In this document: positions 1,617 through 27,228 of the stretch, one piece after another
Layout of the letters: every line of letters starts with the position of its first letter
How positions within the stretch are numbered: position 1 is the first letter of the stretch
Source: a virus
Direction: 5' to 3' (one strand)
IMG/VR virus record: IMGVR_UViG_3300042868_011525
Coordinates: 1-29,331 of that record
DNA: 29,331 nucleotides
Translations under genes and position numbers: made by a program
Notes under the pieces: model-generated
Database searches by the model: none
Told to the model about the DNA's origin: nothing
The model's input: only the letters and a program-made list of their open reading frames with translations

Positions 1617-2807
1617 ATGAAAAAGAACCTGCGCCTTTTCACTTCGGAGTCTGTAACTGAAGGCCATCCAGACAAACTCTGCGATCAGATAAGCGACGTG
1701 CTTTTAGATGCTTTGCTTGCGGCTGATCCTTCTGCGCGCGTTGCGATCGAAACGATGGTGACGACTGGGCTGGTTCACGTTGCTGGCGAGGTGACCACTT
1801 CGGCTTGGATTGACGTGCCTGCTTTGATCAGGGAAAAGATTCTTGAGATTGGTTATGACTCGTCACTGAAAGGTTTTGACGGGGCTTCTTGCGGCATCAG
1901 CGTTTCGATTGGTGCGCAATCGCCTGATATTGCTCAGGGCGTTGACGAGGCTTTTGACGCGTCGCAGGATGAGTTGGATTTACAGGGGGCTGGCGACCAA
2001 GGCCTCATGTTTGGTTACGCAACTGACGAAACCGAAAGCCTCATGCCTTTGCCGATTACTTTGGCGCATGCGCTCGCGGCTAGATTGACCCATGTGCGCA
2101 AGGCAGGGATTACGCCGCACTTGCGACCTGATGGAAAAACCCAAGTAACCATTGGTTATTTGAACAACGTTCCGAAAACAGTTGAAACAATCGTTATTTC
2201 TGCCCAGCACGCTGAAGATTATCCGCAGGAAAAGTTGCGTGATTTTATCCGCTTTGCGGTTATTGACCACGTGCTCGCTGATTACGATTGGTTGGATTTA
2301 TCAAACATGAAGGTTTTGATTAACCCAACTGGCCGCTTTGTTATCGGCGGCGCGCAGGGAGACGCAGGTTTGACTGGCCGTAAAATCATCGTCGATACTT
2401 ATGGCGGCATGGCGCGTCATGGCGGCGGCGCGTTTAGCGGCAAAGACCCGTCGAAGGTTGACCGCTCTGCGGCTTACGCAATGCGTTGGATTGCTAAAAA
2501 TGTCGTGGCGGCTAAGTTGGCAAGCCGCTGCGAAGTTCAAGTCGCGTATGCAATCGGAGTTGCAAAACCTGTCGGCCTTTACGTGGATACTTTTGGAACT
2601 TCAAAGATTGAAGACGCAACACTTGCAGAAGCGATTCTTGAAGTTTTCGACCTTCGCCCGAAGGCGATCATTCGCGACCTTGACTTGCTGAATCCGATTT
2701 ATTCAAAGACCGCGACGGGCGGCCATTTTGGTCGCGACATTTTTACGTGGGAAAAAACAAACAAGACTGAAGCCCTGCTTGCCGCAGTCGAAAAGAGAAA
2801 GAACTAA
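1617..2807 (+). CDS. metK: S-adenosylmethionine synthetase (methionine adenosyltransferase)
   Basis: A full-length 396-residue enzyme that makes S-adenosylmethionine from methionine and ATP. It carries the family landmarks: GHPDK (16-20) with the catalytic histidine, GAGDQG at 124-129 (ATP binding), and the phosphate-binding loop [19 protein letters not shown] at 269-287. All three domains appear present, with no frameshift or missing block. AAGGAG lies seven bases before the ATG. The stop overlaps the ATG of the methyltransferase by one base (TAATG), so cofactor maker and cofactor user are made together. Metabolic genes of this kind are uncommon in phages, and its origin is probably a host metK. 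Confidence 0.95.
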
Positions 2808-3991
2808 TGAAACTAGAAACCGTCGCCATTGCTTCGCTAACCAGCGATCCAAACAATGCCCGAAAGCATGATGAGAAAAACCTTGAAGCAATCATTGGCA
2901 GCCTGAAAACTTTCGGCCAGCGCAAACCAATCGTTATCTCTAGCGAAAGCGTCGTGGTTGCTGGCAACGGAACGATCGAAGCGGCTAAACGTTTGGGATG
3001 GGAAAAGATTGAAGTGGTTCGCGTTCCTGAAGATTGGACAGCCGACCAAATCAAGGCTTTCGCCTTGGCAGATAACCGCACCGCTGAACTTGCTTCTTGG
3101 AACGGTGAAGTTCTAACCGCTCAGTTGCGAGAGTTGGAGTTCGCTGGTTTTGAAGTTGCAGAGTTCGGATTTGAACCCGTAGAAATTGAATTCGACGCTG
3201 AAGAACTCAAGGATGAAATCCCCGAACTTCCAGAAGAGCCGCGTGCAAAAGTTGGCGATCTTTGGCATTTGGGTGACCATTTGCTTCTTTGCGGAGATTC
3301 GACCAGCGCGGCAAGTTACGAGAAACTTCTTGGTGATGGCTTCGCTGACCTGATCGTAACCGATCCCCCTTGGAATGTGAATTACGGGGCTGTTTCAAAA
3401 AACAATTCCCAAGGATACAAACCGCGCACAATCATGAACGACCACATGGGCGTTGACGAATGGCAAAGTTTCGTGTCTGGCTTCGTTTCAAACATGGCAA
3501 GTTTCTCAAAGGGCGGCTGCCCGATGTATCTCGTTATGTCGCCGCAGGAATGGCCTGTGATTGACGCAACGCTGCGCCAGCATGACTTTCACTGGTCAAG
3601 CACAATCATTTGGGCGAAGGATCGTTTGGTGCTTTCGCGCAAGGATTACCACACGCAGTATGAACCGATTTGGTACGGCTGGAACGGTTCAGCACCGCGC
3701 CTTGTTCAAGTTGAAGACCGCAAGCAATCCGATCTTTGGCAATTTGATCGCCCTTCGCGTTCTGATCTTCACCCAACCACCAAGCCTGTGGAACTTATCG
3801 TTCGAATGATTCAGAACAGCAGCAAGCGCGGCGACGTTGTTCTTGAGCCTTTTGCTGGCTCAGGGTCAACCCTTATCGCTTGCGAACAAACTGACCGCAA
3901 GTGCCGCGCCATTGAACTTGACCCGAAATACGTTGACGTGATTGTGAAACGATGGGAAACCCTTACTGGTCTTACCGCGACGGTTTCTTAG
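2807..3991 (+). CDS. DNA methyltransferase with N-terminal ParB-like domain
   Basis: 394 residues in two parts. Residues 1-100 are a ParB/sulfiredoxin-like domain (NNARKHDEKNLEAIIGSL, then VAGNGTIEAAKRLGW and FALADNRTAEL). From about 150 it is an N4/N6 amino-methyltransferase: catalytic DPPW at 186-189 and the SAM-binding motif PFAGSGST at 348-355. The order (motif IV before motif I) marks the beta class. The ParB-methylase fusion is common in phages and methylates adenine or N4-cytosine. No restriction endonuclease is adjacent, so protection of phage DNA from host restriction, or marking for packaging, is more likely than a complete restriction-modification system. The recognition site cannot be read from sequence. 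Confidence 0.92.
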   Translation: MKLETVAIASLTSDPNNARKHDEKNLEAIIGSLKTFGQRKPIVISSESVVVAGNGTIEAAKRLGWEKIEVVRVPEDWTADQIKAFALADNRTAELASWNGEVLTAQLRELEFAGFEVAEFGFEPVEIEFDAEELKDEIPELPEEPRAKVGDLWHLGDHLLLCGDSTSAASYEKLLGDGFADLIVTDPPWNVNYGAVSKNNSQGYKPRTIMNDHMGVDEWQSFVSGFVSNMASFSKGGCPMYLVMSPQEWPVIDATLRQHDFHWSSTIIWAKDRLVLSRKDYHTQYEPIWYGWNGSAPRLVQVEDRKQSDLWQFDRPSRSDLHPTTKPVELIVRMIQNSSKRGDVVLEPFAGSGSTLIACEQTDRKCRAIELDPKYVDVIVKRWETLTGLTATVS

Positions 3992-22195: not shown

Positions 22196-22304
22196 TTTTT
22201 TCCCTTCGTTTTTAATGCGCGCCTCTTTGGCGTAGGTCTAGTATCTCGTAGGTCGGATCATGAATGCAACTTCTGTGGCAACTTTTATGTAACGATTTGG
22301 TTAC
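22196..22304 (-). promoter_or_regulatory. Conserved promoter-leader module, copy 4
   Basis: Minus-strand reading: half-sites GTAAC (22300-22304) and GTTAC (22289-22293), 11 apart, then ATAAAAG, -35 TTGCAT (22264-22269), an 18-base spacer with ATGATCC, -10 GATACT (22240-22245), then AGACCTACGCC, a hairpin CGCC-AAAGA-GGCG and ACGAAGGG. The half-sites overlap the last codons of whiB. Confidence 0.75.
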
Positions 22305-22576
22305 GCTTTTCGCATCAGTTCTTCGCGTTCCGAAGGAGTCAAGCCGCCCCAAATGTTGCTAACCTCGCCAGCAGCCAGAGCATAGGCTGCGCATGCTCGC
22401 TGAGCAGGGCAACGATTGCAGACAGCCTTGGCCGCAAGTTCTGTGAAACGGCGCGTTCCATAATCTGGGTAAAGTTCAGGGTCAAACATGTCAGGGTTTT
22501 GACGGCATTCGGGCGATCCAATTTCGTCGATTGCCTCGTTGAGTTCTTTCCAAAGTTTTATGCGCAACTGGGACAT
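22301..22576 (-). CDS. WhiB-family (Wbl) iron-sulfur transcription regulator
   Basis: Ninety-one residues with the four Wbl cysteines C24, C53, C56 and C62 (C-x28-C-x2-C-x5-C) that hold a 4Fe-4S cluster, followed by SNIWGGLT, the family's glycine turn, and a basic end. Host Wbl proteins bind the major sigma factor and alter promoter choice; phage WhiB proteins (for example TM4 WhiB) can block host Wbl action and superinfection. AAAGGAG lies before the ATG. It overlaps by 19 bases the end of the zinc-ribbon gene upstream, so the two form an operon. Confidence 0.93.
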   Translation of the reverse strand: MSQLRIKLWKELNEAIDEIGSPECRQNPDMFDPELYPDYGTRRFTELAAKAVCNRCPAQRACAAYALAAGEVSNIWGGLTPSEREELMRKA

Positions 22577-24956: not shown

Positions 24957-25358
24957 ATGCTTGAATGCCGACGTTGCGGAATCTTCTGCTACGGAGATTT
25001 TTGGGCTGAAGTCATTCTTGAATCTGGCGAAGAGATTCTTTGCACCGATTGCAAAAGAACCCCCCAAAAACAACTTCGCTATTTCATCGGGGATAACGTA
25101 TTTCAATGCCGCCCTTGGTTCGGGCAGATTGATGACGAAGGTTATCCCGTCGATGTTCATGGCGTTCAATTCACAGGCAAGCGTTCAGTTTGCGGCTTTC
25201 GCGATTGCGTGGTCGCAACTCATCGCCCCGACATGATCAGGCACAGCGTCAAAATCAATCGTTTGATGGCTGAGCGCGAGTACGAGCCAACTGAAGAACA
25301 GTTAGAACGTGCTCTTCAGAAGGCATTCAAGTTTTTTCAAGAACAGGAGAAAAAATGA
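24957..25358 (+). CDS. Zinc-finger-like protein of unknown function
   Basis: 133 residues with AGAGGA before the ATG. C4-x2-C7 and C29-x2-C32 suggest a zinc ribbon at the start; further cysteines (FQCRPW, VCGFRDC) lie in the middle. The end is a charged helix EPTEEQLERALQKAFKFF. Its stop overlaps the initiator gene by four bases (ATGA), so it belongs to the replication operon. Confidence 0.72.
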   Translation: MLECRRCGIFCYGDFWAEVILESGEEILCTDCKRTPQKQLRYFIGDNVFQCRPWFGQIDDEGYPVDVHGVQFTGKRSVCGFRDCVVATHRPDMIRHSVKINRLMAEREYEPTEEQLERALQKAFKFFQEQEKK

Positions 25359-25963
25359 GCGTTGAAGTTATGGCTTGGGTTTTCAAGAACTCAAAAGCAA
25401 GCCCAGCGGCAAAGTTGGTGCTTTTGGCCATCGCAGACCACCAAGGAGAGCGTGGAGCGTGGCCTTCAGAGAGAACGCTTGCGCGCGCTTGCAACATGAG
25501 CGAAAGGTCGGTTCGTCGAAAGATTGCCGAACTTGTCGAACTTGAAGAGTTGGAAGTTATCGTAAATGCAGCCCCGATTGAAGGCCAATACAAATCAAAC
25601 CTTTACTGGGTCAGGGTGGCCAATTCTGGCAATCAGGGTGGCCAAAATGGGCAGGCAGGGCGGACAGATTTGGCAGGCAGGGTGGACAACGTTGGCCACC
25701 AAACCATTAAGAACCATAAAAGAACCTTTAATCAAGATTGGAAGCCAAGCGAAGAGTTGACCAAATGGGCGTTGGAAACAAACCCCGATTTGCAAATTGA
25801 GACTGAAACCGCGAACATGGTTGACTACCTGCTTGCCAGCGGAAAAGCAGCAGCGGTAAAAGATATGGACGCGCGGTTTAGAACTTGGGTTCGCAACAGC
25901 GTCAAGTTTCAAAAACCTAAAGTTAAGGAGGAATACGTGAAGTTCTTTGGTGATCGCCTGTGA
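25355..25963 (+). CDS. Replication initiator-like protein with winged helix-turn-helix
   Basis: 202 residues. The first 80 form a helix-turn-helix domain: KASPAAKLVLLAIADHQ, WPSERTLARACNMSERSVRR, then KIAELVELEELEV, as in phage O-type and DnaD-type initiators. Residues 86-115 are a Gly/Gln/Asn-rich linker whose DNA holds the 22-base repeats described separately. The C-terminal domain (120-202) has LTKWALETNPDLQIETETANM and FRTWVRNSVKF, the usual helicase-loader region. The next gene is the helicase, matching the lambda O-P layout. Confidence 0.82.
   Translation: MSVEVMAWVFKNSKASPAAKLVLLAIADHQGERGAWPSERTLARACNMSERSVRRKIAELVELEELEVIVNAAPIEGQYKSNLYWVRVANSGNQGGQNGQAGRTDLAGRVDNVGHQTIKNHKRTFNQDWKPSEELTKWALETNPDLQIETETANMVDYLLASGKAAAVKDMDARFRTWVRNSVKFQKPKVKEEYVKFFGDRL
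25612..25699 (+). repeat. Four 22-base iterons inside the initiator gene
   Basis: Repeats begin at 25612, 25634, 25656 and 25678, always CAGGG followed by Y/T-GG-M-CA and a later TGGCA/GGGCA block; spacing is exactly 22 bases each time. Copies 1 and 2 share their first 12 bases (CAGGGTGGCCAA). Since 22 is not divisible by three the protein reads each copy in a different frame, so selection must be on DNA. Confidence 0.8.
25612..25740. other. Predicted phage replication origin
   Basis: The four iterons are followed by an AT-rich stretch (25701-25740, 29 of 40 bases A or T) suited to strand opening. The whole element lies in the linker of the initiator gene, just upstream of the helicase gene. 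This copies the plan of the lambda origin, where iterons inside gene O are bound by O protein. The binding of this initiator to these repeats is inferred. Confidence 0.65.
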
Positions 25964-27228
25964 ACATTGAAAGCGCGCTGATTGGTGCGGTGCTATTAAA
26001 TTCGGGGCGCAACCTTGATGAGTTGACGGTTCGCCCTTCAGACTTTGATGATCCACGCCACGTTCAGATTTGGACAAAGTTTTTAGAGAACCACGCCCAA
26101 GGCAAGCCTTGCGACACGCTTTCGATGATTACCGAACTGCCGAAACTGGCTGATTTGTTTCACCAAGCAACCAGCGACGCGCAATCTCCGTCTTCGGCTG
26201 CGTTTTATGCGCGAAAAGTTTACGAGTCTTCAATGCGCCGACAACTGAAGTCTGCTGGTTACGCTCTTGTGGATTTGACCGACGCTGATGATCCTGAAGC
26301 AATGCTTGAAGCAGCCTACGGCCGTTTAGATTCAGTCGCTGAGCAGGAGCAGGTCGATGAAGTCCATTTTGTTAATGATTTCTACGGCGATTATTTTGAG
26401 CAGGTTGGCAAGAGGCAATTCCATTCAAGTTCAGGAATCAAGCCCTTGGACGATTTGCTGAACGGCTTTCGCGCTGGCGGCCTTTACATTATTGGTGCGC
26501 GACCAGCCACAGGCAAAACTGTGGTCGGTTTGCAGTTGGCTTTTGGGTTGGCTCGCAACGCTAACTCTTTGCCAAACGGTGAAAAGGCTGGCGCGGTTGC
26601 GTTTCATTCTTTGGAAATGTCGCGGAATGAACTTTTGAATCGTTTGACTGCGCAAGTTTTTGACATCCCTTTGGATCGCTTGGAACGCGGAATGGTATCC
26701 GCTGAAGAAAAAAGGATGATTGAAAGTCAAAAGCATGAGATTCTGCGAATGCTAACGATCAATGACCGAAGCAATCAAACGGTTGCTTCCATCAGGCGAT
26801 ACGCTCGTTCAGTTATTCGGCGCGGCGTTCCACTCAAAGCAATCGTGGTCGATTATCTGGGGCTGATTGGTGACGTTCAGGCTTCTTCGCGTTCACGCTA
26901 TGAGGCGATGACTTTGGTTTCTGGCCAAATGAAAGCGTTGGCTAAGGATTTGAACGTGCCCGTCATTTGCCTCGCTCAGTTGAATCGAAACGTTGAAGGG
27001 CGCAAAGATTCCGCGCCTGTGATGGCTGACCTGCGTGATTCTGGTTCGATTGAGCAAGACGCTGACGTGGTCATGCTTTTGCACCGCAAAGCCCAGCAGC
27101 ACGCGGTTGACGACCACATTTTGAACGTTCTGCAAATCATCGTTGCCAAGAACAGGCATGGCCAAACAGCAGGCTTGGAGTTCTTCTTTGAAGGTGCTTT
27201 CAGCCGAATCAGCGAAGCCAAACGTTAG
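25960..27228 (+). CDS. DnaB-type replicative helicase
   Basis: 422 residues from GTG 25960 (GTGA overlap). An N-terminal helical domain (ESALIGAVLLN and FYARKVYESS) precedes the RecA-like motor: GARPATGKT (179-187), Walker B IVVDYLGL (295-302), CLAQLNRNVEGRKD and DLRDSGSIEQDAD as in DnaB, then VAKNRHGQTA. It unwinds the fork as a hexamer and would be loaded by the initiator upstream. Somewhat shorter N-terminal domain than host DnaB. Confidence 0.92.
   Translation: MNIESALIGAVLLNSGRNLDELTVRPSDFDDPRHVQIWTKFLENHAQGKPCDTLSMITELPKLADLFHQATSDAQSPSSAAFYARKVYESSMRRQLKSAGYALVDLTDADDPEAMLEAAYGRLDSVAEQEQVDEVHFVNDFYGDYFEQVGKRQFHSSSGIKPLDDLLNGFRAGGLYIIGARPATGKTVVGLQLAFGLARNANSLPNGEKAGAVAFHSLEMSRNELLNRLTAQVFDIPLDRLERGMVSAEEKRMIESQKHEILRMLTINDRSNQTVASIRRYARSVIRRGVPLKAIVVDYLGLIGDVQASSRSRYEAMTLVSGQMKALAKDLNVPVICLAQLNRNVEGRKDSAPVMADLRDSGSIEQDADVVMLLHRKAQQHAVDDHILNVLQIIVAKNRHGQTAGLEFFFEGAFSRISEAKR

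Follow-up and report, generated by a model that had tools for sequence, protein, structure and literature searches.

The window analysed here, a linear 29,331-bp IMG/VR record of viral DNA, very probably carries a phage replication origin at 25611-25740, within the linker-coding part of the phage's own initiator gene. This assignment is based on a set of tandem repeats, the conservation of these repeats as DNA, the order of the surrounding genes and the predicted domain layout of the initiator.

Results

A tandem array in the linker of the initiator gene

The initiator gene lies on the plus strand at 25355..25963 and encodes a protein of 202 residues. It matches PF13730 (HTH_36) above the Pfam cut-off (E 5e-13) and PHROG families annotated as replication initiation / O-like; RP-C was matched below threshold and PF04492 was not matched. 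The next gene, also on the plus strand (25960..27228), encodes a DnaB-type replicative helicase (PF03796, E 7e-68; PHROG 19), which is the probable loading partner of the initiator. Both the helix-turn-helix host protein and the DnaB-type helicase beside it had been proposed in a first-pass annotation made from the sequence alone, and both were recovered here by profile search. Genes for a RecE-like exonuclease and RusA are also found near this locus.

An AlphaFold (AF2) model of the initiator (mean pLDDT 67) predicts a winged helix-turn-helix domain at residues ~1-86, a disordered linker at 89-123, where pLDDT is below 50 throughout, and a helical C-terminal domain at ~133-184. The first 93 residues gave structural matches with Z scores of 8-10 to winged helices, among them those of LexA, of the DnaD N-terminal domain (2v79) and of the initiator entry 4pt7. 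These matches are generic and indicate the fold of the domain and not its function. The family profile had no match among PDB sequences.

The residues encoded by the array are those of the unstructured linker 89-123 in this model. Repeat searching identified four 22-nucleotide copies on the plus strand, spanning 25611-25698 with spacings of exactly 22, 22 and 22 and with 68-77% identity to the first copy. The first two copies, at 25611..25632 and 25633..25654, both contain the core GGGTGGCC (at 25614 in ORF phase 1, and at 25636 in phase 2); the third, at 25655..25676, has the core GGGCGGAC at 25658 (phase 0), and the fourth, at 25677..25698, has GGGTGGAC at 25680 (phase 1). TRF reported the array with a period of 22, 3.9 copies and a score of 86, the highest for any array in the window. 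The period-22 self-match score of the gene, 31.0, exceeded the maximum of 16.4 reached at any period in 2000 codon permutations, and the maximum of 15.8 reached at period 22 in 2000 synonymous shuffles that kept the protein. A self-match scan of the whole window found no segment scoring above 12 except the array and its 44-bp harmonic. Dyad symmetry within the 22-bp iteron is only partial, with 6 of 9 pairs matching in the consensus. The four repeats with an exact 22-base period that the first-pass annotation had seen in the linker were confirmed, with the start moved from 25612 to 25611.

We also looked for other marks of an origin. No DnaA boxes (TTWTNCACA) were found in the window. GC skew, suggested earlier as a check, showed no turn at the array (1 kb, 0.127 on the left and 0.107 on the right), a comparison that is confounded by the one-way orientation of the neighbouring genes, and we dropped it as an origin mark.

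The repeats are conserved as DNA

Two scans of IMG/VR yielded 72 loci, of which 63 are non-redundant genes, and all 63 relatives carry 3-5 copies of the core at the same position in the linker. Position, copy number and core are retained in initiators down to ~37-40% protein identity. The spacing of the cores is mostly 21 bp (in 146 intervals) or 22 bp (in 20); the window's own clade has the 22-bp period, most relatives have 21 and some mix 21 and 22.

Core copies in the 63 genes fall in frames 0, 1 and 2 in 220, 17 and 6 cases, respectively. In 11 genes, including those of the window's clade (L001-L004, L039 and L040), the same DNA motif is read in more than one frame, and in this clade as well as in L014, L015, L021, L065 and L069 a single DNA core read in several frames gives rise to unrelated peptides. 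Codon choice is equally constrained: every Gly-Val-Thr tripeptide in the 63 relatives (189/189) is encoded by GGG GTG ACA, whereas elsewhere in the same genes GGG accounts for just 14% of Gly codons, GTG for 28% of Val codons and ACA for 29% of Thr codons. Across the 130 copies with 21-bp spacing, CAGGGGTGACA is nearly invariant, A-GGGGTGAC-A is invariant and a C precedes it in 119; this C and the first and last A around GGGGTGAC lay outside our search pattern. In 1.04 Mb, counting both strands, the long motif TCAGGGGTGACA was seen 119 times inside arrays and a single time outside them. Furthermore, synonymous change is depleted over the array and the AT-rich region that follows. Among codons for the same residue, 1 of 38 in this part differed from the relative L002, compared to 45 of 147 in the remainder of the gene (Fisher p 1e-4), and 4 of 37 compared to 61 of 143 differed from L003 (Fisher p 2e-4).

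These sequence comparisons strongly support the view that the repeats are maintained as DNA and that the linker peptide is a by-product, because reading frames shift, codons are locked and synonymous change is lost in the relatives. The first-pass annotation had reached the same view from a period that is not a multiple of three; its conclusion, including the by-product peptide, agrees with the frame shifts and codon locking, but the 22-bp period itself is not essential, as most relatives have 21. It had also named relatives that keep the protein linker and lose the 22-base period as evidence against the idea. The comparison gave the reverse, with the protein linker and even the period changing while the DNA core is kept.

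Among 65 family genes, the residues RRK in the recognition helix accompany the core GGGTGG[AC]C in 6 of 6 cases, and [QKM]RD accompanies GnnGTGAC in 59 of 59. This pairing in the sequences is consistent with an initiator that reads its own iterons, and it may reflect a single evolutionary event. Altered cores (GATGTGAC and GAGGTGAC) with unchanged placement were seen in the relatives L041, L067, L042, L057, L066, L073 and L074, which could be useful for mapping the protein residues that set iteron specificity.

A second array in the AT-rich stretch

Immediately beyond the iterons, 25700..25740 (plus strand) is 71% AT, compared to 49% for the window, and is a probable DNA-unwinding element. Its best 40-mer ranks 34 of 29,291, so the stretch is AT-rich but not unique in the window. 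An AT-rich stretch of about 40 bases had been recognized before; what had been overlooked is that it holds more than a biased composition. It contains a second array on the plus strand, with AACCATTA at 25702..25709, AACCATAA at 25712..25719 and AACCTTTA at 25723..25730, giving the pattern AACC[A/C]TTA every 10-12 bp in several frames. Neither strand of the window has a triple AACCNT cluster other than the one at 25702.

The relatives carry 1-4 AACC copies 3' of the last core, mostly as AACCATTA or AACCCTTA. Their spacing is 11 or 12 bp in 86 of 104 intervals, and in 44 of the 63 genes the first copy lies 23 bp past the point where the last core starts. As for the iterons, several reading frames are used (81/70/16). 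When codons were redrawn with the peptide kept, 67 AACC copies were expected (maximum 87) compared to the 167 observed, and the AT content of the downstream region was 0.541 compared to the actual 0.615. The orientation is one-sided, with 190 AACC and one GGTT in the downstream segments of the relatives. Within the open-access PMC literature searched, the AACC element appears to be new, and among the literature matches listed for AACCATCA none concerned phage origins.

In-gene arrays in other PF13730 initiators

Cultured phages with PF13730 initiators have arrays within the gene too. These vary widely in sequence and in period, which is, for example, 25 bp in Arthrobacter phages Arielagos and Laila, 24 bp in C72C1 and 14 bp in EBPR podovirus 2. 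Behind several of these arrays come repeats of the AACCATC type.

A blind DNA scan of IMG/VR for GAACCATCA-N2-4-GAACCATCA, which was not a census, returned at least 113 loci with an ORF of at least 80 residues. At least 93 of these have a helix-turn-helix in the ORF, and a significant tandem array lies upstream in 89 of the 93 listed. Among the matches listed, spacings of 11, 12 and 13 bp occur 37, 52 and 4 times and frames 0, 1 and 2 occur 71, 14 and 8 times. In the viral contigs L084-L203 the pattern is mostly found in a helix-turn-helix initiator gene just past a tandem array; it could act as a bait for in-gene origins.

We also drew a sample blind to the motif; it consists of PF13730 matches from genomes belonging to the same phyla as three bacterial loci (actinobacterial, clostridial and pseudomonad). 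An in-gene array scoring above all 60 codon shuffles was present in 60 of the 93 initiator-type genes; periods of 21-24 account for 43 of these 60 arrays and periods that are not multiples of three for 24. Pairs of AACC 10-14 bp apart were found in 33 of the 93 genes, compared to a mean of 13.2 (maximum 20) with redrawn codons, and GAACC pairs in 24, compared to 6.2 (maximum 11); GAACC repeats at helical spacing therefore recur in PF13730 initiators of other phyla. Pairs of GGTT, AAGG, CCAA or TTGG showed no excess in this sample (n=93). The association of AACCNT pairs with arrays was not significant in the sample (10 of 60 genes with an array, 2 of 33 without; Fisher p 0.20), and because of this we regard the AACC element as a feature of a subset only. 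Within the open-access PMC literature, the evidence for frequent in-gene arrays in PF13730 initiators also appears to be new.

Discussion

The gene-internal arrangement of an origin is itself already known, from lambda gene O and from the pSK41 and pPR9 rep genes. Lambda gene O, like the window, has four iterons midway along the initiator gene, with an AT-rich stretch behind them and, next, a gene that recruits the helicase (annotation; PMC7466680). The first-pass annotation had called the locus lambda-like. The relatives strongly support this for an in-gene iteron origin kept at the DNA level, but the two initiators are not homologous by Pfam, since lambda O belongs to PF04492 and the window's protein to PF13730. 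The lambda iterons also differ in sequence and are spaced 20/24/23 instead of 22/22/22, no AACC repeats follow them, and the next gene in lambda is that of the loader P where the window has the helicase.

Plasmids and other phages offer further parallels. In the staphylococcal RepA_N plasmid pSK41, an N-terminal winged helix-turn-helix binds four Rep boxes in the centre of rep, and the encoded centre is a dispensable linker (PMC5703833). The hybrid rep of pPR9 encodes an N-terminus of the pfam13730 type, and the rep region is able to replicate autonomously (PMC5703833). In our analysis the match of its helix-turn-helix to PF13730 fell below the Pfam cut-off, and the gene carries an internal array of repeats, with units measuring 15/30/45 bp, and lacks helically spaced AACC pairs. 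Both systems differ from the window in being plasmid-borne and in having a Bac_RepA_C C-terminus. Phage P1 oriL lies inside repL, and synonymous changes in its AT-rich part impair replication (PMC9948254); this origin is likewise within an initiator gene, but the initiator is of a different family. In RK2 oriV, iterons stand beside an AT-rich region with short repeats of its own, of which the initiator binds one single strand (PMC4081077). Unlike the window, RK2 has its origin outside the gene and a Rep_3-type initiator. The RK2 13-mers are not known to be related to AACC in sequence.

At the window's locus, iterons lie in the initiator's own coding sequence, the repeats are conserved as DNA and an AT-rich element adjoins them. 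From these features we infer binding by the gene's own product, melting, single-strand contact and helicase loading, as follows. The N-terminal winged helix of the initiator would bind the four 22-bp iterons, which recur every two turns along a single face of the DNA helix, and the iteron-bound assembly would open the adjoining AT-rich stretch. The AACC[A/C]TTA repeats, in one orientation and about one helical turn apart, would most likely offer the initiator contacts specific to one strand of the opened DNA; this step takes as its model RK2 TrfA, a protein that binds one strand of repeated 13-mers (PMC4081077). The helicase from the next gene could then be loaded at the opened stretch.

We considered whether the repeats might instead serve mainly in regulation, as an in-gene operator or roadblock or in titration and handcuffing, with replication starting elsewhere. 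The initiator's winged helix-turn-helix resembles LexA and MarR-type folds, and plasmid iterons also serve in copy control, which would fit such a role. However, the array is 250 bp downstream of the start codon and not at a promoter, the AT-rich AACC element at a fixed distance is unexpected for an operator, and the window has no second iteron-like array; we regard this explanation as improbable. Slightly less credible still is the idea that the array has no relation to the initiator and is a signal for recombination or packaging, or else a product of recent slippage. The nearby RecE-like exonuclease and RusA would be in keeping with recombination, but retention of the array's position, copy number and core down to ~37-40% initiator identity argues against it, as do the PF13730 initiators of other phyla, where this position is occupied by different repeats.

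A role at the level of the protein, in which a tandem peptide linker provides flexibility or protein contacts and the DNA repeat is its consequence, might be suggested by the 21-bp period and regular SGVTxxx peptide repeat of many relatives. The unrelated peptides made from one core in the window's clade and in the five other relatives named above, the 189 of 189 locked codon triplets and the loss of the period-22 score upon synonymous shuffling make this explanation extremely unlikely. We rejected it on the frame shifts and codon locking, and for the window's clade it is refuted.

An origin inside the initiator gene accounts for odd repetitive linkers that are otherwise annotated as protein features. 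It also provides a pointer, from sequence only, to origins in uncultured or unstudied phages and in prophages whose initiators are of the PF13730 type, where in most cases no origin is marked. We tentatively suggest, as a possibility somewhat short of even, that PF13730 initiators across several phyla share a two-part in-gene origin, with family-specific iterons read by their own winged helix and, in the opened region, a (G)AACC[A/C]T[T/C]A element that they have in common and that recurs at helical spacing. If so, peptides of the type T-I-x-E-P-S-x-E-P-S would be by-products of the AACC DNA element, and both parts could serve, by sequence alone, to locate origins in thousands of phages and prophages. 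Were the AACC element a single-strand or unwinding signal common to these initiators, it would form a shared second recognition code alongside the fast-changing iterons.

Other features of the window concern the host and biology of the phage. A gene for a WhiB-family regulator, a family typical of actinobacteria and their phages, lies at 22301-22576 on the minus strand, opposite to most of its neighbours, and argues for an actinobacterial host. A first scan of genome contigs with the family alignment gave zero relatives, and for this reason the host is assigned from the WhiB gene only. At 1617-3991, a gene for S-adenosylmethionine synthetase directly overlaps one for a DNA methylase (N6_N4_Mtase, with a weak match to ParB_N), which suggests that the methyl donor for DNA modification is provided by the phage itself. 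Close to the left end of the record, at 739-1146, is a mannose-6-phosphate isomerase-type (cupin) gene (PF01050).
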